Origin: Prevotella fusca JCM 17724
GTDB lineage: Bacteria; Bacteroidota; Bacteroidia; Bacteroidales; Bacteroidaceae
Assembly: GCF_001262015.1 (NCBI RefSeq)
Contig: NZ_CP012075.1
Coordinates: forward strand, 1-64,000
DNA: 64,000 bases
Reading direction: 5' to 3'
The translations under genes and the position numbers were made by a program. The notes beneath the pieces are model-generated. The model ran no database searches. It saw only the letters and a list, made by a program, of their open reading frames with translations, and was not told the DNA's origin. Shown one piece after another: positions 7,598 to 54,895 of this stretch (positions are counted from its first letter, which is position 1; each line of letters begins with the position of its first letter).

Positions 7598-8197
7598 GAT
7601 TCATCCGTTAAATGCGTGGACACTTTTCGTATAGCTTTAACGGATGAACCGAAGTTATTTGTTAAATAAAAACATAGCCAAGACCGCCTTGTCTACCTGT
7701 TTTATTATCATCTTCTGATGCAGAAAACCTTTCCATATCAAGACTTTGAAAATCGCAGGCAACAGTTTGAAAAATCATGACATAATTTCGGATAAAATAC
7801 CTACAGATAAAGGCAAAAACACGTGTAAAAAGCAAGTTTGCAACCAGCAGTAAATCAGTTGGTTATAAAGCAGTGCAAGAAAAGGTGCTTAATTGGACTT
7901 CAAAAGGGCGTTAGTTAGACCTCAAAAGGGCATCTATTGCAAGTCAATTGGGCGTCTTTTGGAAGCCAAGAGACCATGTATTGGTTTTGAATAGTATGAA
8001 AATAGTTTACAAGCGTTGGGTGATATGGGAATAAGTTGTTTGTAGAAGACGGAAAGACATAGTATCTGTTTACCTTTTCTGCATTTATTATCTTGTGCTT
8101 TATCCTTTTTGTAAGACCATCTGATTTTGGACAGTCATACCATGCAGGTGTATAAGCCTTTATTCTGTTTCCAATCTACGCATTTAACGGAAGAGCC
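7598..8197 (+). mobile_element. MITE copy A, non-coding, 600 bp
   Basis: Same element as at 34569-35351 and 52154-52769. The left end reads GATTCATCCGTTAAATGCGT and the right end, read inward on the other strand, starts GGCTCTTCCGTTAAATGCGT, so the ends are inverted repeats of ~23 bases. The left end carries a perfect 13-base inverted repeat of its own: TTCATCCGTTAAA (7600-7612) with TTTAACGGATGAA about 23 bases on. Flanks share only ATAAAA, so the target duplication is degraded. There is no transposase or other credible reading frame. Interior words such as acataatttcgg and cttttctgcattt match copy C closely. Confidence 0.85.
7845..7980 (+). repeat. 22-bp phased CAA-unit array inside MITE copy A
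   Basis: After a conserved lead-in (tgcaagaaaaggtgctt), units start with CAA at 7901, 7923, 7945 and 7967, exactly 22 bases apart each time. Units begin CAAAAGGGCG, CAAAAGGGCA, CAATTGGGCG and CAAGAGACCA. The same step is seen at 18018, 34798, 44571, 52457 and 54786. Confidence 0.85.
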
Positions 8198-8374
8198 ATA
8201 AAAGCAGGTGCTGGAGGGTGCTTTTGGCAGACTCTCTCTCTTTCAGTGTGTTCTTAGCACCTGCTGTAATTGATTTGTGATGCTGTTCTCTCTTAACCCT
8301 TGCAACCCACTGACACTTGCTTCCTGTCCCATTACCACCTGTATTCAATCTTATTACCGCTTACTCCCTCTCCT

Positions 8375-8470
8375 GTCAGCACCTACTTTCAATTCAATTA
8401 ACGCCCTTTTGCAATGCAATCAGGCACCTTTTCCTGCATGGGTTTATAATCATTTGATAATCTGCAGGAT
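8375..8470 (-). repeat. Solo degenerate copy of the phased-repeat lead-in with one unit
   Basis: On the minus strand this reads a lead-in like the other arrays (tgcaggaaaaggtgcctgat) followed by one unit beginning CAAAAGGGCGTTA (C at 8411). There is no second unit 22 bases on. It lies outside the neighbouring MITE, so the core can exist without the element's ends. The rest of 8198-8753 shows no gene. Confidence 0.55.
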
Positions 8471-8753
8471 ATAAACCTGTTGGGGAAGCGTTGTTTTTGA
8501 TGTCTTATTGTCCGGGAAAACTTAAACAGCATACGCTCCTATGCGGAACTATTGTTGTTGTCAGAATAGTCCTGAAAGCCCCTGTGATAGTGGACTTCGA
8601 GGCTGTTAAGGAGAGTATAGTATGCTGATGGTGATTGATTCTGACAAATGTTTGGTTAATAGATGCAGTGTTGTAATTTTTATATAATTATTGTATAATT
8701 CTGTTGTTTTGTAAATAAATGAGATGAATATATGAAAAAAAGTAAGAAAAAGG

Positions 8754-8783
8754 TTGTTCTTTTGTGAATTATACTTATCTTTG
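8754..8783 (+). promoter_or_regulatory. Promoter of the exported protein and subtilase operon
   Basis: TTG at 8754-8756 and TATCTTTG at 8776-8783 are 19 bases apart, a good Bacteroidetes promoter. It would give a leader of about 130 bases before the ATG at 8924. Confidence 0.7.
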
Positions 8784-8923
8784 CACATGTGTCTGAAAAC
8801 TGAAATATTCGGTGGAGTGTTTGCCGCGGGGACTGTCTCGTGGTATGGTTGATGGAGTAGGGCACTGTCAATGAAGGGAAGTTTTTGTATTCAATATATG
8901 GTAATCAATAAACAGGTATATAT

Positions 8924-10525
8924 ATGAAGCAGGTTTACTACTTTCTTTTCTTAGTGCTGCTGACGTTGTCGTCAGTAAGTGCAAAGGCTGATACACCAGT
9001 AAAAATCAAGGTGGATGATGTCAGCAGAGTTACTGTAAAGGTCAATTATGCCCCTGTTGCCGGTCTTGTCAACGGTGTGAACACGGTGAACGTTCCCCAA
9101 TATGGGTCTTTGATGGTTGAGGCAAAGCAGGGATTCTATCTGAAGAGCGTCATGAAGACGACAGCTTCGGGCGACAACGTGGCGCAGAGCATTACGAATC
9201 TTACCAGTTGCAACATCTATGTCTCAGAGTCGGACAAGAATGTACTTTACACCGTTAAGAGTGGCGACCTTGCCGCTGTCCGCACGGGTTCGTGCACGGT
9301 GAAGGTCGACAATGCTGTGAAGGTGAAGTTAGTACGCTATGAGTCGCAGTCTGTAGTTGACCTGCAAAACGGTGAGAATACTGTGAAATGGATTCCTAAT
9401 ACTGAGAAAACACTTGTTATCAGCAATGCTAATTATGGTGATGCACCTATTTACAAGGTGACACTTGACGGTCAGGAGGTGGCTGCTTCAGGCGGTCAGT
9501 ACTTCGTTATGCCTGTAGAGGGCAGCATGGTTGTTGTTGCAGCCGATTATCCTGATGTGTCCTGTGCGGTGAAGTTCAACTTCTCTGATGAGGCGGCAAA
9601 GGGTGTTCTGTCGAAGGTGATGGCTGACGGAGTGGAGGTGCAGGGCTACAGCGATGCCGGTTTCACGCTGAAGGCAGGGGCGAAGTTGTCGTTGAAGTTC
9701 GACCAGACCAACTATTCCTTAGACGCTTTCAAGGTCAATGGCGATGCTGTAAGCATCTATGGTACTTATGAATGTTATGTGAAAGGCGAGACAGTCTTTG
9801 ATATCCAGGCGCATAAGTATGCCACGGTGAAAGGCTTGCTGACGGTTGACAAGGCAGCAAATATCACCGTTTATGAGGGGCAGAGCTATAATAATAAGGT
9901 GATAACACTGCATGATGGCGAGAATAGCATTGAAGTGGGTGAGAAGAACAATCTCATCCAGGTGAAGCCTAACAGCGGTTGCAAGATTGAGTCGTTGAAG
10001 GTCAACGGCAATGGCTTGTCTGCCAATTACGAAGGTGCTTACGAGGTAAGACTGGCTGAGGGAATGAAGATAGAGATTACTACTTCTGCCATTGTGCGCG
10101 ACCAGAAGACAACGGTTTTCATTGATGATATAAGCCTTGCCAACTATGGATTTAACTTCTATCGTTCCGACCGTTCCACAGTACAGATGCAGACAGGTGA
10201 AAATACGCTTATGTTCTCAGCGGATGATAATCACTTCATGCTTGGTGCATACGGGAATGATATGAGTAAGATGGTGGTGAAGCTGAATGGAAAGAAGCTC
10301 GAGCCTGCTTACCCCGGCGGTACAAGTTTTGAGTTCGAATTGCGGAATAATGACCGTCTGGATGTTCTGCTCAAGGGAGAAACGGATGGTATAGGCACTG
10401 TGCAACAGGCAAGGAATGGCAAGACTGTGGTCTATCGTCTTGACGGAACACGTGTGGAAGGAACCAGTCTGCCTGATGGAATGTATATTATTAATGGTAA
10501 AAAGGTTATAGTAAACAAGCGATGA
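8924..10525 (+). CDS. Exported beta-rich protein with Prevotella-type C-terminal region
   Basis: 533 residues. Residues 1-22 form a signal peptide (FLFLVLLTLSSVSAKA). The body is made of repeated ~70-80 residue beta-strand blocks with recurring phrases on the pattern NGENTVKW, DGENSIEVG, TGENTLMF, suggesting several tandem domains of one fold. The end (YRLDGTRVEGTSLPDG, then MYIINGKKV) is the C-terminal region common in exported Prevotella proteins, possibly a sorting or anchoring signal. No enzyme motif is visible. The stop overlaps the start of the subtilase gene (ATGA), so the two are translationally coupled. It may be a partner or adhesin for the protease, but that is inference. Confidence 0.75.
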   Translation: MKQVYYFLFLVLLTLSSVSAKADTPVKIKVDDVSRVTVKVNYAPVAGLVNGVNTVNVPQYGSLMVEAKQGFYLKSVMKTTASGDNVAQSITNLTSCNIYVSESDKNVLYTVKSGDLAAVRTGSCTVKVDNAVKVKLVRYESQSVVDLQNGENTVKWIPNTEKTLVISNANYGDAPIYKVTLDGQEVAASGGQYFVMPVEGSMVVVAADYPDVSCAVKFNFSDEAAKGVLSKVMADGVEVQGYSDAGFTLKAGAKLSLKFDQTNYSLDAFKVNGDAVSIYGTYECYVKGETVFDIQAHKYATVKGLLTVDKAANITVYEGQSYNNKVITLHDGENSIEVGEKNNLIQVKPNSGCKIESLKVNGNGLSANYEGAYEVRLAEGMKIEITTSAIVRDQKTTVFIDDISLANYGFNFYRSDRSTVQMQTGENTLMFSADDNHFMLGAYGNDMSKMVVKLNGKKLEPAYPGGTSFEFELRNNDRLDVLLKGETDGIGTVQQARNGKTVVYRLDGTRVEGTSLPDGMYIINGKKVIVNKR

Positions 10526-12897: not shown

Positions 12898-12920
12898 GTT
12901 ATTTGTCTCTGTCAGCAAAG

Positions 12921-13004
12921 TTACTAACGGTAGGTAACAGTATTACAAACCGTTAGTAACAGCTTTACAAAGGCTTTGTAACCCGATTACTAAGCACAAG
13001 GAGC
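12921..13004 (+). repeat. Array of TTAC...GTAA palindromes at exact 22-bp spacing
   Basis: TTAC starts at 12921, 12943, 12965 and 12987, always 22 bases apart. The third unit is nearly a perfect palindrome (TTACAAAGGCTTTGTAA). It begins 24 bases after the subtilase stop. A second array of this type is at 62880-62962. The step equals that of the CAA arrays, and CAAAGGC within the palindrome resembles CAAAAGGGC. The rest of 12898-13289 shows no convincing gene. Confidence 0.75.
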
Positions 13005-13625: not shown

Positions 13626-13661
13626 AAAGAATACAGTACTCATTTTTATTTACTATTTAAT

Positions 13662-16600
13662 ATGAAGCATAAGTTTACTTTCCTGCCATCCTTTCTTCTG
13701 TTGATGATGGCTATGTTGTGGAGCTCGCTCGCTGTTCATGCACAGGAAGAGCAGATTATCAGGTTCCATACCAATGTTCCTGCAAAAGCAAAGAACAGTG
13801 GTACAGCTGCACAGGTCTCCTTTGTGCTGGGTGCAGCGGATGAGGACATGACGGTCAGCATTGACTGTGGCGCAGGTGATACCGAGTTCGATGTGAAGAA
13901 AGCCAAGGTGGAGAACGACAATGGCGAACAGACCATCAAAGGCTCGCTTTTCACGGGTGTCGTGTCTGACGAAGGCTGGGTGACGATTACCGGCGACCCG
14001 GACAATCTCTATTTCTTCAATGCTTCAGGCAATGAAATCGACCAGATTGAGTTCAGTGAGAACCTGAAACTCAGAGTTCTGAACCTGGAACATAATGTGC
14101 TGAACGCCTTGAATATTGACAAGCTACAGCATCTGAATGTCATCTATCTGCAGGATAATCCGTTCACAGCAGCCACACCGCTGATGATTGGCAGTATGCC
14201 TGAACTCGTAGTTCTGGAGGTGCCACAGATAGGACATATCTCACAGAACTTCACCCTTCGCAACTTTCCTAAGCTCCGTTCGTTCGATGCTTATCATACA
14301 TTGGGACTGAAGTCCGTTGATCCGACGGGCTGTCCTAACCTGCAGCGTCTGAGTCTTGACATGACAAATGTTGAGTCAGTTGACCTCTCACAGAATCCCT
14401 TGCTGCAGATTCTGAATGTCAGCGACTCTCGTGTGAAGAGTCTCGACCTCAGTCATAATCCGAAAATCGTACAGCTTTATATCTCGCATTCTTCCGGCAC
14501 AGTGAATACGGATGTGAAGTTCGACAATATCGACATAACGAATTGTCCGGAACTTTACTACTTCTATTGTGGCGGCAATAACCTGTATACGCTCGATTTG
14601 AGCAAGAACCCGAAACTCTTTACTCTCTCATGCGACCGCAACCTACTGAAAAGTCTTGACGTTAGCAACAACCCCGACCTCTATAGTGTCAACGTGCGTT
14701 ACAACTACATGGACTTCGCTACGTTGCCTTGGCCGGGCAACTGGTTCGAGTATTACCATGAGCAGAATCCGTTGGAGCTGGATGATACCTATAAGGTAGG
14801 GGATGTCATCGACCTCGGCAGACGTGTGCTCCGTGCAAAGACTACCACCCAGGCGAAGCTCTATCGTGTGCCTAAGGCTGATCCGACAAAGCCTGTTGAG
14901 CTGGACGAGTCGTACTATTCCTATGCAGACGGTAAGGTAACATTGAAGAAGGCATTGGATGAAGAGGTGTTTGTTCAGTTCACTAACAGTGTTCTCAAGG
15001 ACTATCCCATCCGCACCGAGAACTTCCGTGTGAAGACTGTTGCCGAGTTCGGTAAGGATGTGAAGGCTATCGAACTGGCAAGTCTCGGTTCTGAAGGTTC
15101 GCCTGTTAAGATGTCTGTGGGCATTCTCGATGCTACGGAGGCTAACCCCGTAACGGTGAAGGTTGACCTTGGTGATGGAAATACTACCCCGTTCCAGGTT
15201 ACATCTGACCGTCCTGCAACAGCCAACATCAATACCGTCCGCACGGGTTCAGGCAATATAATTGTCTATGTTCCGCAGGACAGGTATGTGACAACTTTGG
15301 AGTCTGATGGTCAGTATATTGACAATATTGACCTCTCCGCACTCACCGAACTCCGTACACTCTCGCTGAAGAATGCAGGTCTGACAATCATCGATCTTGC
15401 CTACAACAACAAGCTCGAGAAACTTGATCTTTCCGGCAACAGTCTCAAGCGTGTCGACCTCCGTGGTCCGTCGACTTACTTCTACAAGAGTAAACTTTCC
15501 GACATCAACGTAAGCAGAAACCAGTTGGATTCACTTCTCTTCAATGACCTCTATGCTGTCCGCAAGCTCAATGTCAGCCATAACAATCTGAACAATCTGG
15601 ATGTTTCTGACGCTGACAACCTGCGTGTACTTGATATTTCTTACAACAAGTTCACACGCCTTTTGCTTAATCACAGTGAACTCGTTGAGGAAATCAATGC
15701 TTCAAACAATGCACTCACCGAGGTGAAGATACCGCCAGTTGCACCTGTTGCCAAGCTGAACGTCAGCGGAAACTACTTCACTTTGGCGAATATGCCTGAT
15801 GACTTCGGACTGGCACAAGGCAAGTTCATCTATGCACCACAGCATGTGCTGCAGATTTCAACATCTTCCCCCGGAATTGACCTTTCTGAACAGTATATCA
15901 CAAGGAACGGTGCGACGACACAGTTTGTATGGAAGAAGAAGGACGGTCAGCCGCTGAAGCTGGGAACTGACTACACCATCAGCAATGGCTCGGCAAAGTT
16001 CCTTAACCTCGGTCTTGACTCTATTTATTGTGAGATGACACATGCAGGCTACCCGGATTTCCAAGGTGCTGACGTCTTTAAGACAACCTGCGTTCATCCT
16101 ATAAGTATGCCACAGTACGAGCTGGCTTCGTTCACTACCGTCAACCAGACGGACAGTGTGGCACTCTCTTTGGCAAGCTACGAGCCGGGTAAGTCGGTTT
16201 ATTTCGAATGGAATGGTGACGGTAACGTTACCCAGTACGCTCTTGACACCACCTACAAGCTCTTCCGTGCCAAGTCAAAGGAGAATGCAAAGGTGCGTGT
16301 GCTTGTTGCTGAGGCTGATGACAAACTCAAGATATTCAGCGTGTCCAATGTCAAGATGAGCCAGGCTGACCTCTCTGGTCTGAAGGATGCAAAGGTAATT
16401 GCAGTTGCTGGGGCTGGTCTGTCGGCTGTCAAACTTCCTGCTTCAGCTCCTGGTCTGACCGACCTGAACCTTGACGATAATGCACTGAGCGATATAGACC
16501 TGTCACATTTCCCGAAGCTCTTTTCAGTCTCTCTGATTGGCAATAAGTTCAAGACATTCGACCTTTCGCAGGCTCAGAGCCTTGGAGTGGCTTACCTCTC

Positions 16601-17378
16601 AAGTAATAAGATGAAAGATATCAAGCTCGATAATCCTAACCTCTGGAACCTCGACTTGAGTAACAATGATCTTGAAAGCGTATCCCTTGACAAACTGCCA
16701 GCACTGGAGCAGCTGTGGCTGAACGCCAATAAGCTGACAAAGGTTGACGTATCAAAGAATCCGAAACTTGCCGTACTAAATATCGTTGGCAACCGTCTGA
16801 AGTTCTCTACCATGCCTTTGCCAATAAATAATGGCAAGCCTTTCAATAAGTATTCATACAATCTTCAGGCACCGATTGATGTCAAGTGCGTTAATGGTAA
16901 GGTTGACCTCAGTTCTGAGGCTGTAGTAGGCGGTGAGCCAACGACCTATCGTTGGTTTGACGGTAATGTCAAGTATATTGACGGTGAGTTGCAAGGTGAG
17001 GAGTTGGACAAGAATGAGGAATATACGGTTGAGAACGGTGTTACTACGCTGAAACTCACCCAGTCGTTCACGAAACTTGTCTGTGTCATGGCAAACGACA
17101 ACTTCCCTAATGCTCTCATTTATACGAACTATATTGAGTTTACCCCTGATCCGACAGGTATTGATGCTGTCAGTGCCGATAAGGATGTGAAGATTCAGTT
17201 TGTTGAAGGCGGTATCAACGTCCTTGGGGCAAAGAACAATATAGTTGCTGTCTATACCATTGATGGTAAGCTGGCTTATCAGAGCAAGGTTGTTGACGAT
17301 GCGGCCCGCATCTCCTTGGCTCGTGGTACCTATATTGTACGTGTAGGCACCAAGGCGGCAAAAGTGAGTATCAGGTAA
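13662..17378 (+). CDS. Large secreted leucine-rich-repeat protein
   Basis: 1238 residues with a signal peptide (LLLMMAMLWSSLAVHAQ, cut near residue 28). At least three blocks of leucine-rich repeats of the form LxxLDLSxNxL are seen: residues ~130-360, ~550-700 and ~905-1030 (KLEKLDLSGNSLKRVDL, LWNLDLSNNDLESVSL). They are separated by beta-rich spacers of about 150-200 residues. The end (VYTIDGKLAYQSKV ... GTYIVRVGTKAAKVSIR) is a C-terminal region like that of type IX secretion substrates. Proteins of this shape act as adhesins or binding scaffolds on the surface of oral Bacteroidetes. The repeats are closer to the internalin/DLSxN class than to the BspA class. Host or bacterial ligand unknown. 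Confidence 0.85.
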   Translation: MKHKFTFLPSFLLLMMAMLWSSLAVHAQEEQIIRFHTNVPAKAKNSGTAAQVSFVLGAADEDMTVSIDCGAGDTEFDVKKAKVENDNGEQTIKGSLFTGVVSDEGWVTITGDPDNLYFFNASGNEIDQIEFSENLKLRVLNLEHNVLNALNIDKLQHLNVIYLQDNPFTAATPLMIGSMPELVVLEVPQIGHISQNFTLRNFPKLRSFDAYHTLGLKSVDPTGCPNLQRLSLDMTNVESVDLSQNPLLQILNVSDSRVKSLDLSHNPKIVQLYISHSSGTVNTDVKFDNIDITNCPELYYFYCGGNNLYTLDLSKNPKLFTLSCDRNLLKSLDVSNNPDLYSVNVRYNYMDFATLPWPGNWFEYYHEQNPLELDDTYKVGDVIDLGRRVLRAKTTTQAKLYRVPKADPTKPVELDESYYSYADGKVTLKKALDEEVFVQFTNSVLKDYPIRTENFRVKTVAEFGKDVKAIELASLGSEGSPVKMSVGILDATEANPVTVKVDLGDGNTTPFQVTSDRPATANINTVRTGSGNIIVYVPQDRYVTTLESDGQYIDNIDLSALTELRTLSLKNAGLTIIDLAYNNKLEKLDLSGNSLKRVDLRGPSTYFYKSKLSDINVSRNQLDSLLFNDLYAVRKLNVSHNNLNNLDVSDADNLRVLDISYNKFTRLLLNHSELVEEINASNNALTEVKIPPVAPVAKLNVSGNYFTLANMPDDFGLAQGKFIYAPQHVLQISTSSPGIDLSEQYITRNGATTQFVWKKKDGQPLKLGTDYTISNGSAKFLNLGLDSIYCEMTHAGYPDFQGADVFKTTCVHPISMPQYELASFTTVNQTDSVALSLASYEPGKSVYFEWNGDGNVTQYALDTTYKLFRAKSKENAKVRVLVAEADDKLKIFSVSNVKMSQADLSGLKDAKVIAVAGAGLSAVKLPASAPGLTDLNLDDNALSDIDLSHFPKLFSVSLIGNKFKTFDLSQAQSLGVAYLSSNKMKDIKLDNPNLWNLDLSNNDLESVSLDKLPALEQLWLNANKLTKVDVSKNPKLAVLNIVGNRLKFSTMPLPINNGKPFNKYSYNLQAPIDVKCVNGKVDLSSEAVVGGEPTTYRWFDGNVKYIDGELQGEELDKNEEYTVENGVTTLKLTQSFTKLVCVMANDNFPNALIYTNYIEFTPDPTGIDAVSADKDVKIQFVEGGINVLGAKNNIVAVYTIDGKLAYQSKVVDDAARISLARGTYIVRVGTKAAKVSIR

Positions 17379-17727: not shown

Positions 17728-17944
17728 AATTATGTCAGGAAGCAATACTATTAACAAGAAATGATAGAAGTTGTTATCTAAGGGCTGATAGGGGATAAAG
17801 CAGAAGAACAGTAAGTTTTGTCGTATTGATTTCTTTTCTGTATTTTCCATAAAAATGTGTGCTGTTTCTTTTATGGTGACAGGTCTGAAATATATTTACA
17901 AAAAATCTATCAGCCTTCCTTAAAATTCCTATAAATGGCTTTCT

Positions 17945-18110
17945 TTTTTCATGTTTGTAACTAACAGTAATTCAGCATATTGCAAACTTGTACAGGAAAA
18001 GGTGCTTGATTGGGCTTCAATTAAGCCTTAGTTAGGCTTCAATTAACGCCCTTTTGAACGTCAATTTGGGCTTAATTCAAGTGCAGGAAAGCATAGATTG
18101 AAAACAAGGT
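17945..18110 (+). repeat. Solo 22-bp phased CAA-unit array
   Basis: A diverged lead-in (tgcaaacttgtacaggaaaaggtgctt) is followed by CAA units at 18018, 18040 and 18062, with CAG at 18084, all 22 bases apart. Units begin CAATTAAGCC, CAATTAACGCC and CAATTTGGGC. Neighbouring units are partly complementary (AATTAAGCC against GGCTTAATT), so the transcript could fold. No MITE ends are visible. The rest of 17728-18407 shows a C-rich palindrome near 18140 and no gene. Confidence 0.75.
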
Positions 18111-18407
18111 GAGGAAATAATAGGACAAAACAGTGCCGCCCCTACCTCTCCGCAGGAGGAAAAGGGAGTGAAGATAATGATGCTCCTATGTGTTTGGATG
18201 ATATTATTCTGAGGCTGTTCCAGTATCCTTAATCTCAATTTGCACATTAGATTTGTTGAAATCAGATGGTTATAAACCCTCTATGCTGCTGTTTGATATA
18301 TAACTTCTGAACAAGTGAAGATGATTCTTCTGACGACTGATTGGGATTAAAGCACCCTTGTTAATCATAATTATGAGTTCCTTATTTCCTGTTTGAGAAA
18401 AGTTTTG

Positions 18408-25139: not shown

Positions 25140-25290
25140 ACCACCAGCCAGCCTCACCCCCAACCCCTCTCCGAGTGGAGAGGGGAGTGAACACCGTGTT
25201 ATCCCTACAACTTAGGCTTAGACATAGGGGTTTCTCGCATTCTACTCCCCTCTCCATTCGGAGAGGGGCTGGGGGTGAGGCTTCATACTC
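25140..25290. repeat. Pair of inverted C/T-rich palindromic repeats
   Basis: Two copies in opposite orientation: cagcctcacccccaacccct with ctccgagtggagaggggagt at ~25147-25189, and ctcccctctccattcggaga then ggggctgggggtgaggcttc at ~25244-25286. Each has a short palindrome flanked by the gtgaggc word. The second copy abuts and enters the tex remnant. Confidence 0.75.
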
Positions 25291-26956: not shown

Positions 26957-27086
26957 TTATCTGGTATATTAGGATTTTATTTGACTTATCATTTTCCTAT
27001 AATGTTGTCTACCATATAAGGGTGTCACGCTATCTACTCCCCTCTCCACTTGGAGAGGGGCTGAGGGTGAGGCTGGGTTGGCTTTC

Positions 27087-34394: not shown

Positions 34395-34797
34395 AACGTT
34401 TTCTTTTATAGTGTTTTTTCTTCGGATTAAATATCTGCGGAAGTTATTGTCACATACCAATATAACAGACATCATACCTACACATATCATCCATGCTCTT
34501 TGTGATGGACAAAGATAGCAAAAATAACTCGAAAAGCAATGAAGTAGAGAATTTATCAGCAATATTATGGTTCTTCCGTTAAATGGGTAGATTGGAACAG
34601 AATGAAGGATTATACACCTGCATGGTATGACCATGCAAAATCAGTTGGTCTCATAAAAAGGGATAAAGCACAAGATAAAAATGCAGAAAAGACAAATAAA
34701 TACCATGTCTTTCCGTCTTCTACAAACAACTTATCCCCATGCCAACCAACGTTTGTAAACTATTTTCATACAGTTCAAAGCTAACACATGGTCTTTT

Positions 34798-34925
34798 GGC
34801 TTTGAAAAGACGCCCGATTGACTTGCAATAGATGCCTTTTTGAGACCTTACTAACGCCCTTTTGAAGTCCAATTAAGCACCTTTTTTAGCACCATCTTAT
34901 AACTAACTGATTTCCTGTTGGTTGC
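34798..34925 (-). repeat. 22-bp phased CAA-unit array inside MITE copy B
   Basis: Read on the minus strand, units start with C at 34864, 34842, 34820 and 34798, exactly 22 bases apart. They begin CAAAAGGGCG, CAAAAAGGCA, CAATCGGGCG and CAAAAGACCA. The lead-in (aaaaggtgcttaattgg) precedes the first unit. Confidence 0.85.
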
Positions 34926-35156
34926 GAACTTGCTTTTTACACGTTTTTTTGCCTTTATTTGTAGGTGTTTTACCCGAAATTGTGTCATGATTTTTCAAAC
35001 TGTTCTCTACATTTTCAAAGTATTAACATGAAAAGGTTTTCTGTATCAGAGGATGATAATAAAGTAGGTAGCCAAGGCTGTCTTGGCTATGTTTTTATTT
35101 AATGAATAACTTTGGTTCTTCTGTTAAAGCTATACGAAAAGTGTCCACGCATTTAA

Positions 35157-35336
35157 CCCATATCTCATTAGACCACAATGTTCATAATTCCTACTTTTGT
35201 TGCCTAACATCTTTTATTTTCTTGTCGGCATCTTGTCAGTCTTTGTAACTTGACGTCGCCCGCTACGCCTGCGTTGCAAAAACAGACAATCTGTTCGACA
35301 ATAAAACAAAATCTGTTCAGGCTATAATGATATGGG
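35157..35336. mobile_element. 180-bp nested insertion element
   Basis: Inserted in the terminal region of MITE copy B. It starts CCCATATCTCATTAG and ends CTATAATGATATGGG, giving perfect 8-bp terminal inverted repeats (CCCATATC/GATATGGG) with weaker pairing beyond. The 5-bp duplication TTTAA flanks it at 35152-35156 and 35337-35341. Removing it restores the same junction seen uninterrupted in copy A. Non-coding; only copy seen in the window. Confidence 0.82.
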
Positions 35337-40669: not shown

Positions 40670-40735
40670 TTCACACTAAATCCAGCAGAACCTTTATTAT
40701 AAATAGCTGATGCCCATTGTTAGATTTCTTCATCA

Positions 40736-41050
40736 CCCAACAATAGTGACCATCATCACCCAACATCCAACGCCCATCACCCAACAATAGTGACCATCAT
40801 CACCCAACATCCAACACCCATCACCCAGCAATAGTGACCATCATCACCCAACATTCAACACCCATCACCCACAATAGTGACCATCATCCCCCAACATCCA
40901 ACACCCATCATCCAACAATAGTGACCATCATCACCCAATATTCACCACCCATCACTCAATATCCAACACCCATCACCCAACAATATGTATTCATCATCAC
41001 CCAATATCCAACACCCATCACCTTTCCCCCAACATCCATCACCCACCACA
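40736..41050. repeat. 44-bp minisatellite running into the U32 peptidase gene
   Basis: About six tandem copies of a 44-base unit built from tgaccatcatcacccaacat and a second half ccaacacccatcaccc ending caacaatag. Copies vary by single bases and small deletions (e.g. cgcccatc for cacccatc, cccagcaatag). The last copies lie inside the open frame of the U32 gene and encode NIQHPSPFPQHPSP. Confidence 0.88.
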
Positions 41051-44371: not shown

Positions 44372-44504
44372 CTAAAGAACGCAGAAAAAAGGAGAAATAG
44401 TAGGTTTTCTATCTGCAAATAATCATCTGTTGGTTTAGAAATATATTTACAATTTGATGACTGTTTTTTACTCGGTTCTAAGGGTAAAAACGGTCATTTT
44501 TGTG

Positions 44505-44650
44505 TTCTCGTAATTATCATGTAGTCAAATAGTTACAAAGTGCTGCAAGAAAAGGTGCTTAATTGGACTTCAAAAGGGCGTTAGTAACACGCCAAAAGGG
44601 CATCTATTAGAAGCCAAAAGGGCGTTAATTCAAGTCCAATTCATCATGTA
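44505..44650 (+). repeat. Solo 22-bp phased CAA-unit array
   Basis: Lead-in tgctgcaagaaaaggtgctt, then units at 44571, 44593, 44615 and 44637, exactly 22 bases apart, beginning CAAAAGGGCG, CAAAAGGGCA, CAAAAGGGCG and CAATTCATCA. No MITE ends flank it. It lies between the zinc-ribbon gene and the TonB receptor promoter; the rest of 44372-44790 has no gene. Confidence 0.85.
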
Positions 44651-44790
44651 TTGGTTTTTAGTCTTTGATTATTATGTTACAATTTAGAGTGAGTGGGCAG
44701 ATGAATCGGGTTTCCCCTTTTTTCATTTCTTATCCCTTTTATGTGTTTGCTCTTTAATGTCCGAATCGCTATATTCCTAATAAATAAGGA

Positions 44791-44821: not shown

Positions 44822-44862
44822 CCAACGTTAACATTTGCATAAGAACATTAGGACAAGATTGT

Positions 44863-48409: not shown

Positions 48410-48447
48410 AATAAGGGATTTTAAAAGTTGAATACCAGCAGGCAGCG

Positions 48448-49098: not shown

Positions 49099-49139
49099 AA
49101 TGATGTGTTGTTAATTAATTTTCTTGTTTATTTGTTCTG

Positions 49140-50333
49140 TTATAGTACGTTGGCGGTGAGGTAGTCCTGTGGATTTGCACCTTCCGGATAAAGGTCGGAA
49201 AGTACTTCAATACATTCCTCAGGGTTTCGTTCAACGGCTTTCTGCAGATATGTCCTGTATTCTTTCTCCTTCTTAAGTTCGTAGCAACAGCGTGCAAGAT
49301 AAGCAAATCCTATGTCCCAGTCATCGTCCATTTCTGGCAACAGACTGATGAAGATGCGGTAGGCATACTCGACATATCCGTTGTCGAAAGCCGATATGCC
49401 AATGTGAATGAGGGTCAGTGATTTGTCTTTTGACTCGGATAAAGCCTGCTGATAGCACTGCTGTGCTTCGGCTGCATGTCCCTGCATGAGGTGAATATGT
49501 CCGATGGTAACATCTATGACGCTGGTATCCTGGTTATGACAGAGCTGCTTGTAACGCTCGTAATACTTCAGTGATTCCTCGTAATTGCCAAGTGTGAAGA
49601 GTCCGTTAGCCTTGTTGAGGATGGCTTCATCATCATCTGGATTGATGGCAATGGAGTATTCGCTTGACGTGATTGAATCCTGGATGTCATTTCTAAGAAA
49701 CTGATTCTGTGCCAGCTGGTTCCAGTAAGGACCAGAGTAGGGGTTGGAATCAAGTAGTTCATTGAAGATGGATTCGCTCTCTTCATATCTGCCGTGGCTC
49801 TTGAGAATACGTGCATGAAGTTCCTTATAGTCGTTGTCATCAGTCATCGTCGAGCGTTTCAGCCATTTCTCAGCGTAATCCGTCTCTTCGTAATCTGCGA
49901 ATAGGACTGCAACATCAAGGATGTAATCCTCACGGTCTTCTGTGGCTATGGTTTCATCATACTGGGTTTGAAGGAAGATGTCTGCAGCACTGACCTTGTT
50001 CTCGGCAATCATGATTTCTGCCTTCAGATAGAGGTAGTCGAGGTCGCTTTTGTCAATAATTGTCTCGGCAATCTCGTCGGCAAGCTGTGGATTGTTGTCA
50101 ATAAGCAATGCCATTCGTGACTTGAAAGCGAGTGGGGCAGTGGCAGTCGGGTACATTCTGACAGCATAGTCGGCAGCTTCTATGGCTTTGTTTTCCTCAC
50201 CGACAGAGTGATAATACTCAGCAACATCAGTCAGTTCCTCTGGGTCGAGGAACTCGCTGATGTTGCCTTCCTGCAGTGCTTCGTATCTGCGGAGCAGCTG
50301 CTTGAACTTATCGCTGTGATAGTATATGTCCAA
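49140..50333 (-). CDS. TPR-repeat cytoplasmic protein
   Basis: 397 residues, no signal peptide. Tandem tetratricopeptide-like helices cover nearly the whole protein: ADYAVRMYPTATAPLAFKSRMA, LNKANGLFTLGNYEESLKYYERYKQL, HIHLMQGHAAEAQQCYQQAL and IHIGISAFDNGYVEYAYRIF. The N-terminus has no other domain. Bacteroidetes often carry such a TPR protein next to glnS or stress genes; its job is unknown, likely protein-protein scaffolding. The glnS stop lies 14 bases upstream, so the two genes are probably one transcript (glnS first). Confidence 0.8.
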   Translation of the reverse strand: MDIYYHSDKFKQLLRRYEALQEGNISEFLDPEELTDVAEYYHSVGEENKAIEAADYAVRMYPTATAPLAFKSRMALLIDNNPQLADEIAETIIDKSDLDYLYLKAEIMIAENKVSAADIFLQTQYDETIATEDREDYILDVAVLFADYEETDYAEKWLKRSTMTDDNDYKELHARILKSHGRYEESESIFNELLDSNPYSGPYWNQLAQNQFLRNDIQDSITSSEYSIAINPDDDEAILNKANGLFTLGNYEESLKYYERYKQLCHNQDTSVIDVTIGHIHLMQGHAAEAQQCYQQALSESKDKSLTLIHIGISAFDNGYVEYAYRIFISLLPEMDDDWDIGFAYLARCCYELKKEKEYRTYLQKAVERNPEECIEVLSDLYPEGANPQDYLTANVL

Positions 50334-50347
50334 ATCTTGCTTTTTTG

Positions 50348-52078
50348 TTATGCTTTGGCTTTCTTAGCCCAGGTATCCTTCAGACCGACAGTCTTGTTGA
50401 ATACAAGGTGATTATCGGTTGTGTCTGGGTCAAGCATGAAGTAGCCCGTACGCTGGAACTGTAGATAATCGCCGGGCTTTTTCTCGGAGAGATACTGCTC
50501 AACGTAGCACTCCGTGCGTACGGTTAGGCTCTCTGGGTTGAGAAGTTCACGGAAATCACGTTCGTCAGCAGCAGGATTCTCAACATTGAACAAACGGTCG
50601 TACTCACGTACTTCAGCCTTTAAGCAATGGTCTGCGCTAACCCAGTGGAGAGTTTTTCCCTTGATTTTCCTATCTGATCCAGAAGTTCCACTACGTGTTT
50701 CTGAATCGTATTCTGCATAGATTTCTATAATATTTCCTTCTGTATCTTTTTTGCAATAGTCAACTTCTGGACATTTAATAATGTATGCATTATTCAAACG
50801 TACTTCTTTCCCAGGACGTAATCGTTGGAATTTTCGTGGTGCATCCTCCATAAAGTCTGCACGTTCAATCCAAAGGTTCTTTGAGAAGGTTATGGTATGT
50901 GTGCCATCAGCCTCATTCTCTGGATTGTTGATAGCTTCCATCTCCTCAGTCTTGCCCTCTGGATAGTTCGTAATAACCAGTTTCACAGGGTCGAGTACAG
51001 CACTCACACGTGTTGCTTTCTTGTTCAGGTCATCACGTACAGCAGCCTCCAACAAGGCTACGTCATTAAGTGCATCGAACTTGGTATAGCCAATTGAGTC
51101 AATGAAGTTGCGGATAGACTCTGGAGAATAGCCACGACGGCGCATACCGCAGAGTGTCGGCATACGTGGGTCATCCCATCCCTTCACGAGGTTTTCATCG
51201 ACAAGTGTATGGAGTTTACGCTTTGACATTACTGTATAGGTAAGGTTCAAGCGGTTGAACTCAATCTGTCGTGGGCGGTTGTCTTTGAGGTTATCCGCTG
51301 TGCCGTCACTTTCCTTCAGGAAGTCTACTAACTTATCATAGAGCGGATGGTGAGGAACAAATTCAAGTGTACAGATAGAGTGGGTGACTCCCTCAAAGTA
51401 ATCACTCTGTCCGTGTGCAAAGTCATACATCGGATAACAATGCCATTTTGTGCCTGTACGATGATGTGGAATCTGAATGATCCGGTACATAATTGGGTCA
51501 CGGAAGTGCATGTTAGGATTAGCCATATCGAGCTTTGCACGTAGTACCATACTTCCTTCGACAGCCTCGGCTGTGTTCATCTTCTCAAACAGTGCGAGGT
51601 TCTCCTCAACAGGGCGGTCACGGTAAGGTGATGGGATGCCTGGTGTGGTCGGTGTTCCTTTCTGTGCTGCAATTTCTTCCGAAGTCTGCTCGTCAACATA
51701 AGCCAGTCCTTTCTTTATCATCCATAGAGCAAATTCCCACAGTTTCTCAAAGTAGTCACTGGCATAATAGATGTTGCCCCACTTGAAGCCAAGCCAGCTG
51801 ATGTCATGAAGGATATTCTCTACATATTCTGTATTCTCCTTGCTTGGGTTGGTGTCATCAAAGCGAAGATTACAGATGCCATTATAATGTTCAGCTACAC
51901 CGAAGTCCATGCAGATAGCCTTTGCATGTCCAATGTGGAGATAGCCGTTTGGCTCTGGCGGGAAACGTGTCTGGATACGTCCTCCGTTCTTACCTTCTGC
52001 GAGGTCTTCCTCAACCAGTTGCTCAACGAAGCTCAAGCTACGCTTCTCCTCATTGGTGTTGTTCTCTATTGTAGTCAT
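50348..52078 (-). CDS. glnS: Glutaminyl-tRNA synthetase
   Basis: 576 residues from the ATG at 52078. The longer frame uses a TTG that falls inside the promoter and is rejected. Class I synthetase: HIGH-type motif PPEPNGYLHIGHAKAI, ATP-site KMSKS-like VMSKRKLHTLV, plus family marks GICNLRFDDTNP and ISWLGFKWG near the N-terminus and YDFAHGQSDYFEGVTHSICTLEF in the acceptor-binding core. The C-terminal anticodon-binding beta barrels include VRLNNAYIIKCPEVDY. It charges tRNA-Gln directly, so no amidotransferase is needed for glutamine. Confidence 0.97.
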   Translation of the reverse strand: MTTIENNTNEEKRSLSFVEQLVEEDLAEGKNGGRIQTRFPPEPNGYLHIGHAKAICMDFGVAEHYNGICNLRFDDTNPSKENTEYVENILHDISWLGFKWGNIYYASDYFEKLWEFALWMIKKGLAYVDEQTSEEIAAQKGTPTTPGIPSPYRDRPVEENLALFEKMNTAEAVEGSMVLRAKLDMANPNMHFRDPIMYRIIQIPHHRTGTKWHCYPMYDFAHGQSDYFEGVTHSICTLEFVPHHPLYDKLVDFLKESDGTADNLKDNRPRQIEFNRLNLTYTVMSKRKLHTLVDENLVKGWDDPRMPTLCGMRRRGYSPESIRNFIDSIGYTKFDALNDVALLEAAVRDDLNKKATRVSAVLDPVKLVITNYPEGKTEEMEAINNPENEADGTHTITFSKNLWIERADFMEDAPRKFQRLRPGKEVRLNNAYIIKCPEVDYCKKDTEGNIIEIYAEYDSETRSGTSGSDRKIKGKTLHWVSADHCLKAEVREYDRLFNVENPAADERDFRELLNPESLTVRTECYVEQYLSEKKPGDYLQFQRTGYFMLDPDTTDNHLVFNKTVGLKDTWAKKAKA

Positions 52079-52102
52079 ATTTTCTTGTTTGTTATTATGC
52101 TG

Positions 52103-52110
52103 CAAAGTTA
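52103..52110 (-). promoter_or_regulatory. -7 promoter box of glnS
   Basis: On the minus strand TAACTTTG reads TAnnTTTG, 25 bases before the glnS ATG. A weak TGT instead of TTG sits at the expected -33 distance. Confidence 0.6.
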
Positions 52111-52153
52111 CTTATTTTTTCTCGTTTATGACAGACTTTACTATATAAATAAT

Positions 52154-52769
52154 GGTTCTTCCGTTAAATGCATGGATACTTTTCGTATAGCTTTAACAAA
52201 AGAACCGAAGTTATGCATTATACAAAAAGACAGGCAAGACTGTCTTGGCTGTCTTTTCTATTGTCATCCTCCGACACAGAAAATCTTTTCATGTTGATAC
52301 TTTGAGAAACGTAGATAAGGATTTGAAAAATCATGACATAATTTCGGGTAAAATACCTGCAGATAAAGGCTAAAACACGTGTAAAAAGCAAGTTTGCAAC
52401 CAACAGTAAATCAGTTAGTTATAAAGTCGTGCAAGAAAAGGTGCTTAATTGGACTTCAAAAGGGCGTCAGTTAGACCTCAAAAGGGCATCTATTGCAAGT
52501 CAATTGGGCGTCTTTTCAAAGCCAAAAGACCATGTGTTAGCTTTAGGGTGTATGAAAATAGTTTACAAATGTTGGGTAACATGGGGATAAGCCGTTTGTA
52601 GAAGGCGGAAAGACATAGTAACGGGTAGACATCGTGTTTATTTGCCTTTTCTGCATTTTATCTTGTAGTTTATTCCCCCTTTGTAAAACCATCTGATTTT
52701 GGATAGTCATACCATTCAAGCGTATAAGCCTTTATTCTGTTTCCAATCTACGTATTTAACGGAAGAACC
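52154..52769 (+). mobile_element. MITE copy C, non-coding, 616 bp
   Basis: Cleanest copy. Starts GGTTCTTCCGTTAAATGCAT and ends ...CGTATTTAACGGAAGAACC. Perfect 8-bp target duplication TAAATAAT at 52146-52153 and 52770-52777. Interior is colinear with copy A. No transposase or other gene; the open frames inside are short and not conserved between copies. Confidence 0.93.
52395..52535 (+). repeat. 22-bp phased CAA-unit array inside MITE copy C
   Basis: Lead-in gtgcaagaaaaggtgcttaa, then units at 52457, 52479, 52501 and 52523, exactly 22 bases apart. They begin CAAAAGGGCG, CAAAAGGGCA, CAATTGGGCG and CAAAAGACCA, nearly identical to copy A. Confidence 0.88.
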
Positions 52770-52991
52770 TAAATAATGGTGAATATTCTTACATATATTC
52801 TGAACGACACTTTGTGCAAAGCGTCTTTACGTGTTGTTCTGATATGTTTGCAGGCGGTTTTGTAACAGAATGAAACATGCTTTCCGTTCCCTTTCGCAAG
52901 TATGTCACAAAAGACGTGAAACAGCGAGGTGGAAGGCGGATTCTGTAATATAATAATTGCTTTGTTTTGAACAAAAAAGTTGCATAAAAGT

Positions 52992-53022
52992 TTGCTCGTA
53001 TAAAAATATTCTCTTATCTTTG
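52992..53022 (+). promoter_or_regulatory. Promoter of a candidate small RNA
   Basis: TTG at 52992-52994 and TATCTTTG at 53015-53022, spacer 20 bases. No reading frame follows within 100 bases. Confidence 0.75.
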
Positions 53023-53028
53023 CAATCG

Positions 53029-53112
53029 TTATCCTGAATACAATCTTTTTACCTTAAAGAAACTAATACCTATTGAGATTGAATGCCCGTCGCTGTGAAG
53101 CGTTGGGCATTT
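53029..53112 (+). ncRNA. Candidate small RNA, about 85 bases
   Basis: A consensus promoter is followed after ~60 bases by a strong hairpin: AATGCCCGTCGC (53082-53093), loop tgtgaa, GCGTTGGGCATT (53100-53111), then tctcatttc. The only transcription unit that fits between is non-coding. The tail is not a clean T run, so the end may be processed. It could also be the leader of the Nramp gene at 53419, which has its own -7 box. Not matched to a known family by eye. Confidence 0.45.
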
Positions 53113-53393
53113 CTCATTTCCAGCACTTATGGCTTCTGTCATTTTATATGACAATCTGCATTTTTTCTATGCTCTTTTTAAATAAAAATCTTTTATGTTT
53201 TCTCCAGTGTTCTTAGGAATTATATTATAATTTGCAACTTGTTTGTACATATAAGTATTTATGGCTTTTCCTGTTTTACGGTTTGTACTGTTTTGTTGTC
53301 TAAATGGATGGAAAACAAGGTGTTACTATACGGCAGAAAGTAGAACTCAATTATTATTCTTTCTTTCTCCTGCTGTTTTTCATATAGATATTG

Positions 53394-53401
53394 TAACTTT
53401 G
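53394..53401 (+). promoter_or_regulatory. -7 box of the Nramp transporter gene
   Basis: TAACTTTG, 17 bases before the ATG at 53419. The message would have a very short leader of about 10 bases. Confidence 0.6.
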
Positions 53402-53418
53402 CATAAAACTTGAGAAAA

Positions 53419-54681
53419 ATGAAGAATATATTTAAAGAACTACGACGCAAGGATCATCCACGGGTTTTGGGTGCCTTGGATATTTTTAAGTTTATCGGTC
53501 CCGGCCTGCTTGTGACCGTCGGCTTCATCGACCCGGGCAACTGGGCAAGCAACTTTGCCGCAGGCTCAGAGTATGGTTATGCGCTGTTGTGGGTTGTGAC
53601 ACTTTCAACGATTATGCTCATTGCCTTGCAGCACAATGTAGCGCACTTGGGAATTGTGACAGGTCTCTGTCTGAGCGAGGCTGCTGTGAAGTATGCACCA
53701 AAGTGGGTGGGGCGTCCGATTATTGTAAGTGCGATCCTTGCCAGTATATCCACCTCGTTGGCAGAGATACTCGGTGGTGCTATTGCCTTGCAGATGCTTT
53801 TTGGAATAAGTATCCCGACAGGCTCTGTGCTGACGACAGTGGCTGTACTTATCATGCTGTTCACCAACAGTTACAAGAAGATGGAGCGTGCCATCATTGG
53901 TTTTGTGTCCATGATAGGCCTTTCGTTTATCTATGAGCTTTTCCTTGTCGATATTCACTGGCCCGCAGCAATTGAGGGAGCATTTGTGCCGACAGTGCCG
54001 CAAGGCTCACTTTTGATTATCATGAGTGTATTGGGAGCTGTTGTAATGCCCCATAACCTGTTTCTCCATTCAGAGATTGTACAGAGCCGTCAGATTCACT
54101 TGAAGGGAGACGAGCGCATCCGCCACATGCTGAAGTACGAGTTTATTGATACGCTTTTCTCCATGATTGTGGGGTGGGCTATCAATTCTGCCATGATTCT
54201 TCTGGCAGCAAGTACGTTCTTCTCGCATGGTCAGCATGTTGATGAACTTTCACAGGCACAGGCTATGTTACAGCCTTTGCTGGGTGACAATGCCGCAAAC
54301 ATCTTCGCAATAGCCTTGCTGCTGGCAGGTATTTCAAGTACGATTACAAGTGGAATGGCGGCTGGTAGTATCTTCTCGGGGCTGTTTGGCGAGTCGTATA
54401 ATGCAAAAGACACGCACTCCATCGTGGGTATAGTCCTTTCGTTGGGTATTGCGCTTCTGATGATATTCTTTATCGGTGACCCGTTCAAGGGGCTCATTAT
54501 CTCACAGATGTTCCTCTCTGTCCAGCTTCCTTTCACTGTTTTCCTGCAGGTTGGACTGACCTCGTCAAAGCGTGTAATGGGACAGTATGCCAACAGCAGG
54601 TTGAATATGGTATTTCTTTATTCACTGGCAGGCATAGTCACCTTATTAAATATATGGCTTTTGATAGAAAGTATAGCATAG
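53419..54681 (+). CDS. mntH: Nramp family divalent metal transporter (MntH-like)
   Basis: 420 residues from the ATG at 53419; the longer frame starts at a TTG next to the promoter. About eleven membrane helices. The metal-binding motif of helix 1 is DPGN in GFIDPGNWASNFAAG, and helix 6 carries VVMPHNLFLHS, with the Met and His that bind Mn(II)/Fe(II). The protein imports manganese or iron with protons across the inner membrane. No MntR-type repressor or operator is adjacent. Ends in an intergenic hairpin shared with the phased-repeat family. Confidence 0.93.
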   Translation: MKNIFKELRRKDHPRVLGALDIFKFIGPGLLVTVGFIDPGNWASNFAAGSEYGYALLWVVTLSTIMLIALQHNVAHLGIVTGLCLSEAAVKYAPKWVGRPIIVSAILASISTSLAEILGGAIALQMLFGISIPTGSVLTTVAVLIMLFTNSYKKMERAIIGFVSMIGLSFIYELFLVDIHWPAAIEGAFVPTVPQGSLLIIMSVLGAVVMPHNLFLHSEIVQSRQIHLKGDERIRHMLKYEFIDTLFSMIVGWAINSAMILLAASTFFSHGQHVDELSQAQAMLQPLLGDNAANIFAIALLLAGISSTITSGMAAGSIFSGLFGESYNAKDTHSIVGIVLSLGIALLMIFFIGDPFKGLIISQMFLSVQLPFTVFLQVGLTSSKRVMGQYANSRLNMVFLYSLAGIVTLLNIWLLIESIA

Positions 54682-54785
54682 TCTTTAGGTTCTGAAACTT
54701 GAATGTTCTATGCTGGTTATGTAATAAAAAAGTTATGTTGGGAAAATCAACAGATGACCTGTTACGTTCAAATTAAGCACTGATT

Positions 54786-54895
54786 GATGTCCGATAGGTG
54801 CTTAGTTGGAGTCCAACTAAGCACCTTTTCTTGTACTGTTTTGAAATGCTTTGATTATCTGTTGGTTGTGAATCTGAGAATGAAGGAGCTTCTGG
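54786..54895 (-). repeat. Degenerate phased-repeat array that forms a terminator
   Basis: Minus-strand units begin at 54808 and 54786, 22 bases apart (CAACTAAGCACC, CAATCAGTGC), after the lead-in acaagaaaaggtgcttagtt. AGGTGCTTAGTTGG (54796-54809) and CCAACTAAGCACCT (54813-54826) form a perfect 14-bp stem with a 3-base loop, followed on the plus strand by tttcttg and on the minus strand by atcgg. It probably terminates the Nramp transcript. Confidence 0.7.

Follow-up and report, generated by a model that had tools for sequence, protein, structure and literature searches.

A dispersed intergenic element of Prevotella fusca, probably of PINSR type, with near-palindromic boxes at exact 22-bp steps: a candidate protein-docking array

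Two repeats of related bacteria have been described in terms that invite comparison with the element considered here. PINSR, in Prevotella intermedia, is a non-coding intergenic repeat of 188 bp, present in 177 and 184 copies; in the parts of the published account available to us, one copy is reported downstream of tnaA, the repeat is described as having no terminal inverted repeats and is called specific to the P. intermedia/nigrescens group on PCR evidence, and its source and function were left unknown in 2015 (PMC4755523). The other, the BrickBuilt MITE of Porphyromonas gingivalis, has a period of 23 nt, 19 copies in strain ATCC 33277, and terminal inverted repeats (TIRs) that match IS5-family elements (PMC4596501, likewise from part of the account). 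The element of P. fusca resembles BrickBuilt, as so described, in being intergenic and in having tandem repeats flanked by a leader and a tail, but differs in its period of 22 (nothing was found at lag 23 in 464 kb), in its far higher copy number and in its near-palindromic boxes, and no such TIR was seen in its free-standing copies. In Enterobacteria, BIME/RIP elements combine REP palindromes with an IHF site in many intergenic copies. Palindromic units, an IHF-type site and numerous intergenic copies are thus common to both, but the period, leader and end motifs differ, and the P. fusca genome yielded no Y1 transposase of the REP-associated kind.

The closest known system is PINSR, and we regard the P. 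fusca element as probably a PINSR-type repeat. The likeness is drawn from descriptions, to the extent that the available text of the PINSR account allows: both are non-coding, intergenic and of high copy number (at least 150 in P. fusca, about 180 by extrapolation), and they are of similar length, 188 bp in PINSR against about 240 bp here for the whole element or 170 bp for leader through R2. A tryptophanase-like gene with such an element downstream was found in one genome only (G108, which probably belongs to the P. intermedia group), where the gene determines a 459-aa Beta_elim_lyase and the element, read by eye, lies within 420 bases downstream; no element was seen in that position at tnaA-like genes in G017 or G085. 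(The G085 and G108 stretches were chosen at pattern matches, and the density of elements in them is not a sample.) Unlike PINSR as reported, the present element has an architecture that is not confined to the P. intermedia/nigrescens group, being carried by P. fusca, which within the genus appears to side with P. melaninogenica. Moreover, it has 22-bp palindromic boxes and a leader, neither of which figures in the available part of the PINSR description (section 3.4 included). The leader, the phased near-palindromic boxes, the end motifs, and the fixed spacing with changing letters add an anatomy to a Prevotella repeat that was already on record but had no explanation.

In P. fusca, an oral species, the element consists, in about 240 bp, of an end motif (R1), a conserved leader, four or five boxes and a second end motif (R2), the span from leader to R2 being about 170 bp. 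Boxes are 17 bp long, near-palindromic, of the form CAA-N11-TTG, and separated by 5-bp spacers; the step from one to the next is exactly 22 bp, i.e. two helical turns. The leader, with its IHF-like site, begins 39 bp upstream of box 0; the sequence aaaaggtgctt, near which an earlier note on this DNA placed the end of its lead-in, is in fact one of the 22-bp units, namely box 0. In this genome (G000; 55–56 free-standing copies) the two end motifs form direct repeats. Free-standing copies numbered 53 of 60 in box tests (seven were left out for a missing leader start, cut sequence or a phase score below 6), 55 in the R1/R2 and IHF counts and 56 in other end-motif work. They were sorted from MITE-borne copies according to the text of their flanks, with different rules in two analyses, and include some apparent MITE-derived copies misfiled as free-standing (L050:11588 and L205:2950 in one sorting, the copy at 7840 of the window in the other).

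A profile built from copies in the window (the whole 64-kb stretch analysed) finds seven elements there. Three are enclosed by a MITE-like repeat of about 630 bp, and the others are free-standing. The first long copy (7584..8197, approximate ends, + strand, recognised from repeat families D3, D6 and I1) contains an element at 7769..8011 (+), with R1 at 7769, the leader from 7840, boxes at 7879, 7901, 7923, 7945 and 7967, and R2 at 7998–8011. The second (34596–35157) contains an element at 34754..34996 (−), with R1 at 34996, the leader from 34925, boxes from 34886, 34864, 34842, 34820 and 34798, and R2 at 34767–34754. The third (52143..52773, +) contains one at 52325..52567 (+), with R1 at 52325, the leader from 52396, boxes at 52435, 52457, 52479, 52501 and 52523, and R2 at 52554–52567. 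Among free-standing elements, that at 17887..18127 (+) has R1 at 17887, the leader from 17957, boxes at 17996, 18018, 18040, 18062 and 18084, and R2 at 18114–18127, and that at 44438..44681 (+) has R1 at 44438, the leader from 44510, boxes at 44549, 44571, 44593, 44615 and 44637, and a weak R2 (8/14) at 44668–44681. The element at 54748..54941 (−) has R1 at 54941, the leader from 54869 and boxes from 54830, 54808, 54786 and 54764, apparently one unit fewer by alignment; R2 was not recognised in it, and a terminator-like stem previously remarked on here consists of its boxes 0 and 1. Finally, a decayed copy at 8395..8472 (−) retains a leader and boxes 0 (8433) and 1 (8411), the only ones in phase, and neither R1 nor R2 was recognised in it. 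The fixed 22-bp step claimed earlier at six or more loci is borne out, every quoted unit start being present in the re-extracted sequence and the seventh element (8.4 kb) being in phase at boxes 0 and 1 only.

At least 150 places in the genome match a sequence-only model (all listed matches with E<1e-23), and the 26 elements in a 464-kb sample extrapolate to about 180 per genome; the sample comprised the window and 20 stretches of 20 kb, hand-picked at round coordinates with the earlier list already in view. None of the sampled elements was flagged inside an ORF by the gene calls. Among the at least 150 matches listed, strand polarity showed no clustering along chromosomes (p 0.13 and 0.39). 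An Rfam search of the window at the gathering threshold gave no match, nor did a tRNA search.

The phase is exact. In the 464 kb, TTG-N5-CAA sites form 8 pairs at lag 22 and 13 at lag 44, and the remaining lags from 8 to 60 hold a single pair (at lag 21); one Markov (dinucleotide) resample gave none at lags 22 and 44. Neither of the outcomes that would have told against the original observation, random unit spacing or a lag-22 rate equal to that of shuffled sequence, was seen, the former judged from the 464-kb sample and the pattern counts rather than from a census of all copies. Periodicity is also evident in the AA/TT autocorrelation of the arrays, which peaks at lag 22 (0.144, against 0.038 in shuffled sequence) and is raised (0.09–0.11) at lags 9, 11, 13, 31, 33 and 35; together with the 11-bp repeats in L118, L123 and L124, this is what might be expected if the DNA were intrinsically bent, with no specific protein, by A/T tracts that lie close to the ends of the boxes and recur about every 11 bp. 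Such curvature would need neither arm symmetry nor a conserved leader, and we consider it very unlikely to be the explanation.

The end motifs also keep their distance. R1 was recognised in 52 of 55 copies; in 50 of the 55 its start lies 70–72 bp ahead of the leader, and most of the intervening sequence is saturated (pairwise identity about 0.3 in most columns, 55 copies); the motif itself is AT-rich and weakly specific, as 16 mononucleotide-shuffled upstream regions also score 9/14 for it at some offset. R2 was recognised in 42 of the 55 copies, 36 of them at +157/+158, the shuffled control covering R1 alone. An orthologous copy in a sister genome has exactly one unit (22 bp) more. Because the R1-to-leader distance is fixed although most of the sequence between is saturated, the spacing looks to be under constraint, and the suggestion of selection on spacing made in the earlier note gains support from this, from the exact phase and from the one-unit difference between orthologues. 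It is conceivable that fixed spacing persists via rounds of transposition instead of through function in place. Could the step be constant merely by common descent of one family, through neutral tandem duplications? In keeping with this, the copies share homology, boxes 1 and 2 correlate from copy to copy (z 5.9), and gain or loss affects entire units; but the R1 distance persists across mostly saturated sequence and other lineages keep the 22-bp step with different box sequences, so that neutral duplication, already disfavoured, seems barely credible.

The boxes are also symmetrical, on average, in their inner arms. In 26 arrays, chosen by a pattern fixing the box ends (a few may be outside the family), the inner 5-nt arms match on average at 2.91 of five positions, a level that none of 2000 permutations attains; swapping arms from one array to another gives 1.67. 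Boxes thus stay palindromic on average while their letters change between lineages. Within one of these arrays they are near-copies (13.46 of 17 positions identical, against 8.98), so box-to-box complementarity is not independent evidence. The earlier note also proposed that the arrays are selected for RNA folding. If transcribed, they might act as terminator or stability hairpins, and they fold better than shuffled sequence (mean z −3.7 on the + and −3.1 on the − strand, 53 arrays), while neighbouring boxes in some arrays (L121, L128 and the 54.8-kb copy) are reverse-complementary by eye; this complementarity is for the most part a consequence of the near-palindromic form of every single box, and negative z on both strands is the outcome that such boxes would give. 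Furthermore, recombining boxes between elements left the folding energy unchanged (−31.0 vs −30.9 kcal/mol), the RNAalifold consensus was only −0.76 kcal/mol with four pairs, and among 53 P. fusca copies the two halves of a box showed no covariation (z −3.4 to 1.7) and nine of ten box pairs no clear excess of complementarity within over between elements. The sole exception was boxes 3–4 (z=2.8; half arms across their spacer, z=2.6). Covariation is thus unsupported within the genome at the level of boxes and of half arms, and which boxes pair varies between genomes (by eye). Copies filed as free-standing are seldom between divergent genes (1/20, vs 29/128 background intervals of at least 250 bp, for copies with two flanking genes and ORF-based gene calls), as might suit a transcribed element, but no terminator orientation relative to genes was seen, nor a gene-strand preference (8 same, 6 opposite, for tandem copies filed as free-standing). 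An RNA-level role is on these grounds improbable.

How mobile is the element? The long copies have features of MITEs: inverted ends of about 24 bp (read by eye from the consensus), many similar copies (29 of 29 other fetched loci are similar over 340–635 bp) and one empty orthologous place, the 52143..52773 copy being missing from the corresponding place in the sister genomes G156 and G170 (796 bp between flanking matches here, 168 and 169 bp there). In L039, two free-standing copies are likewise missing from the matching intervals of G156. Set against these, the 44438..44681 element occupies the matching place in both sister genomes and another copy is kept in one of them, and the contention that the array is not just MITE filler holds good, given the free-standing copies and this shared place. 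In a purely selfish, MITE-like repeat, boxes, leader and ends would act in cis as targets of some transposase or recombinase whose gene lies elsewhere, the spacing being kept since only competent copies spread, with no host function. The high copy number (at least 150), the absences just mentioned and the carriage of the element by a MITE agree with this, as do near-identical copies in G108 with boxes swapped or inverted and with ends read by eye as inverted TTTGTAAA/TTTACAAA-like sequence. However, the end motifs are direct in P. fusca, some copies stay in place, and a search confined to the Y1 type of transposase (RAYT; Y1_Tnp, PF01797) gave no match in G000, G156, G170, G148, G070 or G108; on balance we think the selfish interpretation a real possibility, if an unlikely one. 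Y1_Tnp matches occurred in 8 of 21 genomes selected for being rich in arrays and in 10 of 15 selected for being poor in them, and RAYT-driven REP elements are disfavoured, 13 of the 21 array-rich genomes, P. fusca included, having no match.

The persistence of palindromic boxes despite the change of letters makes an array of DNA sites at which a dimeric protein would dock the best reading, and the like layout with different letters in related species points the same way. We give about an even chance to the view that this is a PINSR-type dispersed intergenic element working at the level of DNA. We infer that a putative symmetric (dimeric) DNA-binding protein would dock side by side on the near-palindromic 17-bp boxes, which exact 22-bp steps would place on one face of the helix; that the leader, through a site of IHF/HU type, may bend the DNA upstream of them; and that R1 and R2, at their fixed distances, could complete a nucleoprotein assembly that would help either to organise the chromosome or to spread the element itself. 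Of the explanations offered in the earlier note, a multi-site protein-binding array is the one that fits phase and spacing best, its binding protein remaining putative. Docking at two-turn steps is a testable prediction. The E. coli IHF consensus is WATCAANNNNTTR. It occurs in 15 of 55 leaders (0.1 in shuffled leaders) and, once a single position is relaxed, in 28 (0.22 in shuffled leaders), counts to be read with the proviso that the consensus is that of E. coli. A leader of similar form can be followed by eye from P. fusca to P. brunnea and Segatella maculosa.

The anatomy suggests a class of element spread over much of the genus, beyond the single species group to which PINSR was thought to belong. 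In the genus, 24 of the 150 genomes examined (P. fusca included) have at least 20 strict pattern pairs, as does none of 118 other genomes sampled from the order, and the architecture was recognised in G156, G170, P. multiformis, P. veroralis and others, other lineages keeping the 22-bp step with different box sequences. It may be, though we think it rather doubtful, that many Prevotella lineages maintain chromosome-wide docking arrays of fixed geometry with letters rewritten in each lineage, implying a fast co-evolving putative DNA-binding protein that organises or rearranges chromosomes. The reversed-pattern control also reached at least 20 pairs, in 14 of the 150 genomes of the genus. A search of nine genomes for AAC-N11-GTT matched only G017, at four places, but the true reversal of the box pattern is GTT-N11-AAC, and the fetched stretches hold one such array each in G082 (L177) and G113 (L178). 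That in L177, the one examined closely, has by eye the same leader as the element and boxes of the form CAAAACGG..CCGTTTTG; because of this the reversed control is not a clean negative, and its high counts may represent another dialect of the same element.

All the unit starts quoted in the earlier note were recovered when the sequence was re-extracted, and so was the lead-in aaaaggtgcttaattggactt that it placed before them; this lead-in is really a 22-bp unit, however, and the conserved leader starts 39 bp upstream of it. The complete element (about 240 bp) consists, in order, of an end motif R1 (GAAATATCTTTACA-like), a stretch of about 55 bp showing little conservation, the leader (a near palindrome, TTTGTAAC-N3-CTGATNATCAG-N3-GTTACAAA), boxes 0–4 (each CAA-N11-TTG, 17 bp, with 5-bp spacers) and a second end motif, R2 (GAAATATTTTTACA-like). 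A profile built from the window copies finds seven elements in the window, which represents bases 1–64000 of the second of two contigs in a 3.26-Mb genome. R1 and R2 lie at the expected offsets at 7.84, 34.92 (minus strand) and 52.40 kb, where the element is borne within a longer MITE-like repeat, and at 17.96 kb (18.0 in the earlier note). The free-standing element at 44.51 kb has a recognised R1 and a weak R2, that at 54.87 kb (minus strand) R1 without R2, and at 8.47 kb (minus strand) neither motif was recognised.

These lengths were examined in an anatomy set of 60 copies filed as free-standing and nine filed as MITE-borne, taken from sampled stretches of the genome and from 40 more 6-kb stretches, nearly all sited on model or pattern hits. 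Of 55 copies, 52 have a recognisable R1, and in 50 it begins 70–72 bp upstream of the leader; a recognisable R2 is present in 42, at +157 or +158 in 36 of those. As pairwise identity between R1 and the leader is about 0.3 in most columns (0.5–0.7 in short A-rich stretches), it is the length that has been kept and not the sequence. The evidence on R1 is its fixed offset rather than the motif, since 16 shuffled upstream regions also reached the R1 threshold at some offset; the R2 figures are without such a control.

The 22-bp periodicity was borne out in 464 kb of the genome (the window and twenty 20-kb stretches chosen by hand), in which TTG-N5-CAA pairs numbered eight at lag 22 and 13 at lag 44; among the remaining lags from 8 to 60 there was one pair at lag 21 and none elsewhere, and one Markov resample gave none at lag 22 or 44. 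In stretches selected at pattern hits, 13 pairs were found at lag 22 in one relative (G085) and 16 at lag 44 in another (G108). The 464 kb contain 26 elements, extrapolating to about 180 genome-wide, and a sequence-only covariance model gave at least 150 element places from 1256 first-look candidates. The element is a real, dispersed and geometrically constrained DNA element.

It also probably belongs to a kind of repeat already known and unexplained. PINSR, described in PMC4755523, is an intergenic repeat of 188 bp, with 177–184 copies in P. intermedia, also found downstream of tnaA, lacking TIRs and of unknown function. In G108 a Beta_elim_lyase gene (459 aa) is followed by an element of the same architecture as those of the window genome, its leader and boxes corresponding by eye; this suggests to us that G108 belongs to the P. 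intermedia group and that the repeat it carries is PINSR. The link to the window rests on architecture, because the window-genome profile matches 240 kb of G108 just twice, with low scores (16 and 18). Similar Beta_elim_lyase genes in G017 and G085 had no element within the 420 bases shown. The literature on Prevotella repeats and MITEs, PINSR and Bacteroidetes 22-bp repeats, as searched with few subscription papers covered, yielded no description of the 22-bp boxes, and for Prevotella group-specific repeats pointed only to PMC4755523. BrickBuilt of Porphyromonas gingivalis, described in PMC4596501, is a different element.

In other lineages of the genus a similar layout is seen with different letters. 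The covariance model matches 44 of 299 genomes of the genus (E<=1e-4), and many of the weaker matches are, by eye, arrays with the 22-bp step kept and other letters, several of them after a recognisable leader. A few, at L118 (G135), L123 (G061) and L124 (G160), are instead arrays with a repeat of 11 bp (CAATTAGAGTT, CAATATGACTT and similar), half of the 22-bp step. The letter-free pattern CAA-N11-TTG-N5-CAA-N11-TTG is present in 84 of 150 genus genomes and occurs at least 20 times in 24, the window genome included (221 in G085, 129 in G108, 74 in the window genome); none of 118 other genomes of the order, sampled at a 90% completeness limit and with just one other of the family, reached 20 (maximum 14). 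With a reversed-pattern control, 14 of the 150 also reach at least 20; this is no clean negative, since in one example (L177) the architecture is, by eye, that of the element, written in a different dialect. Around GluRS genes, pattern arrays occurred in five of 80 loci, among them those of P. brunnea and Segatella maculosa, in which the leader can be made out by eye. The profile matches P. jejuni weakly at two places (score 16), where the dialect is different again; the P. vespertina and P. corporis loci have none.

For 26 arrays (from 35 loci after dropping near-identical ones), the inner arms within a box matched at 2.91 of 5 positions, against 1.67 after exchange between arrays (0 of 2000 permutations), and arms across the spacer at 2.94 against 1.65. 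The within-box figure alone is independent, as the boxes of one array are near-copies (13.46 of 17 identical, against 8.98). Arm matching exceeds that of exchanged arms, so the symmetry persists while the letters change, a pattern to be expected of a dimer-binding site whose specificity drifts, or of a stem. Near-identical copies in G108 (L168–L173) differ, by eye, in whole boxes swapped or inverted, as if boxes might recombine as modules.

The arrays fold more stably than sequences with their dinucleotides shuffled (mean z -3.7 on one strand and -3.1 on the other), but mixing boxes and spacers from several elements leaves the energy unchanged (-31.0 vs -30.9 kcal/mol), and an RNAalifold consensus predicts four pairs. 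Among 53 copies, box complementarity within versus between elements showed no clear excess (z below 2) in nine of the ten possible pairings, the exception being boxes 3 and 4 (z=2.8; half arms across their spacer, z=2.6). Covariation of a box's two halves between these copies was not found (z -3.4 to 1.7); the direct correlation seen between boxes 1 and 2 (z=5.9) we take to reflect subfamilies. Copies filed as free-standing show no orientation relative to genes (eight same and six opposite in tandem intervals, with five copies between convergent genes, one between divergent genes and two where a stretch ends; the background comprises 69 tandem, 30 convergent and 29 divergent intervals). The complementarity, recombined-box folding, RNAalifold and orientation results favour a DNA-level role, an RNA-level one being less probable. 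The IHF consensus, taken from E. coli, occurs in 15 of 55 leaders (0.1 expected). Our best reading, to which we give an even chance, is that the array would be a docking site for a putative dimeric protein, with the leader supplying an IHF/HU-type bend beside the boxes; such an assembly might benefit either the chromosome or the element itself.

The repeat enclosing the elements at 7.9, 34.8 and 52.4 kb is about 630 bp long, and its ends form inverted repeats of about 24 bp (TGGTTCTTCCGTTAAATGCGT..., by eye from a consensus). A 191-base query from inside it gave 219 candidates, of which 40 were scored as matches (identity 93–100%), and similarity spans 340–635 bp in all 29 other loci fetched. 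Window positions 1–121 (families D5 and I7) are similar to the flank of such a copy, whose array would then lie upstream of position 1. The 52.4-kb copy is absent at the corresponding place in the sister genomes G156 and G170, the interval between flanking matches being 796 bp in the window genome vs 168 and 169 bp, respectively. The free-standing 44.5-kb copy occupies the same place in both, the G156 counterpart being longer by exactly one 22-bp unit. Three further free-standing copies were compared with G156. That at L047:4500 is matched by an element with CCCTTTTG in place of CTTAATTG in two half-boxes; for L039:4023 and L039:17846 the corresponding intervals contain no counterpart, though their flanks have diverged too far to show a clean empty site. 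Downstream of the Nramp gene adjoining the 54.8-kb copy, G156 and G170 also have an element with differing boxes, its orthology uncertain because the other flank differs.

The window also holds a 44-bp tandem repeat separate from the element (40693–40958, CCAACAATAGTGACCATCATCACCCAACATCCAACACCCATCA..., about five copies), a large leucine-rich-repeat protein with a DUF6383 tail (13662–17378) and a repeat with inverted arms CTCCCCTCTCC..GGAGAGGGG (25148–25282 and 26996–27076), similar sequence to which adjoins a free-standing element in L039.
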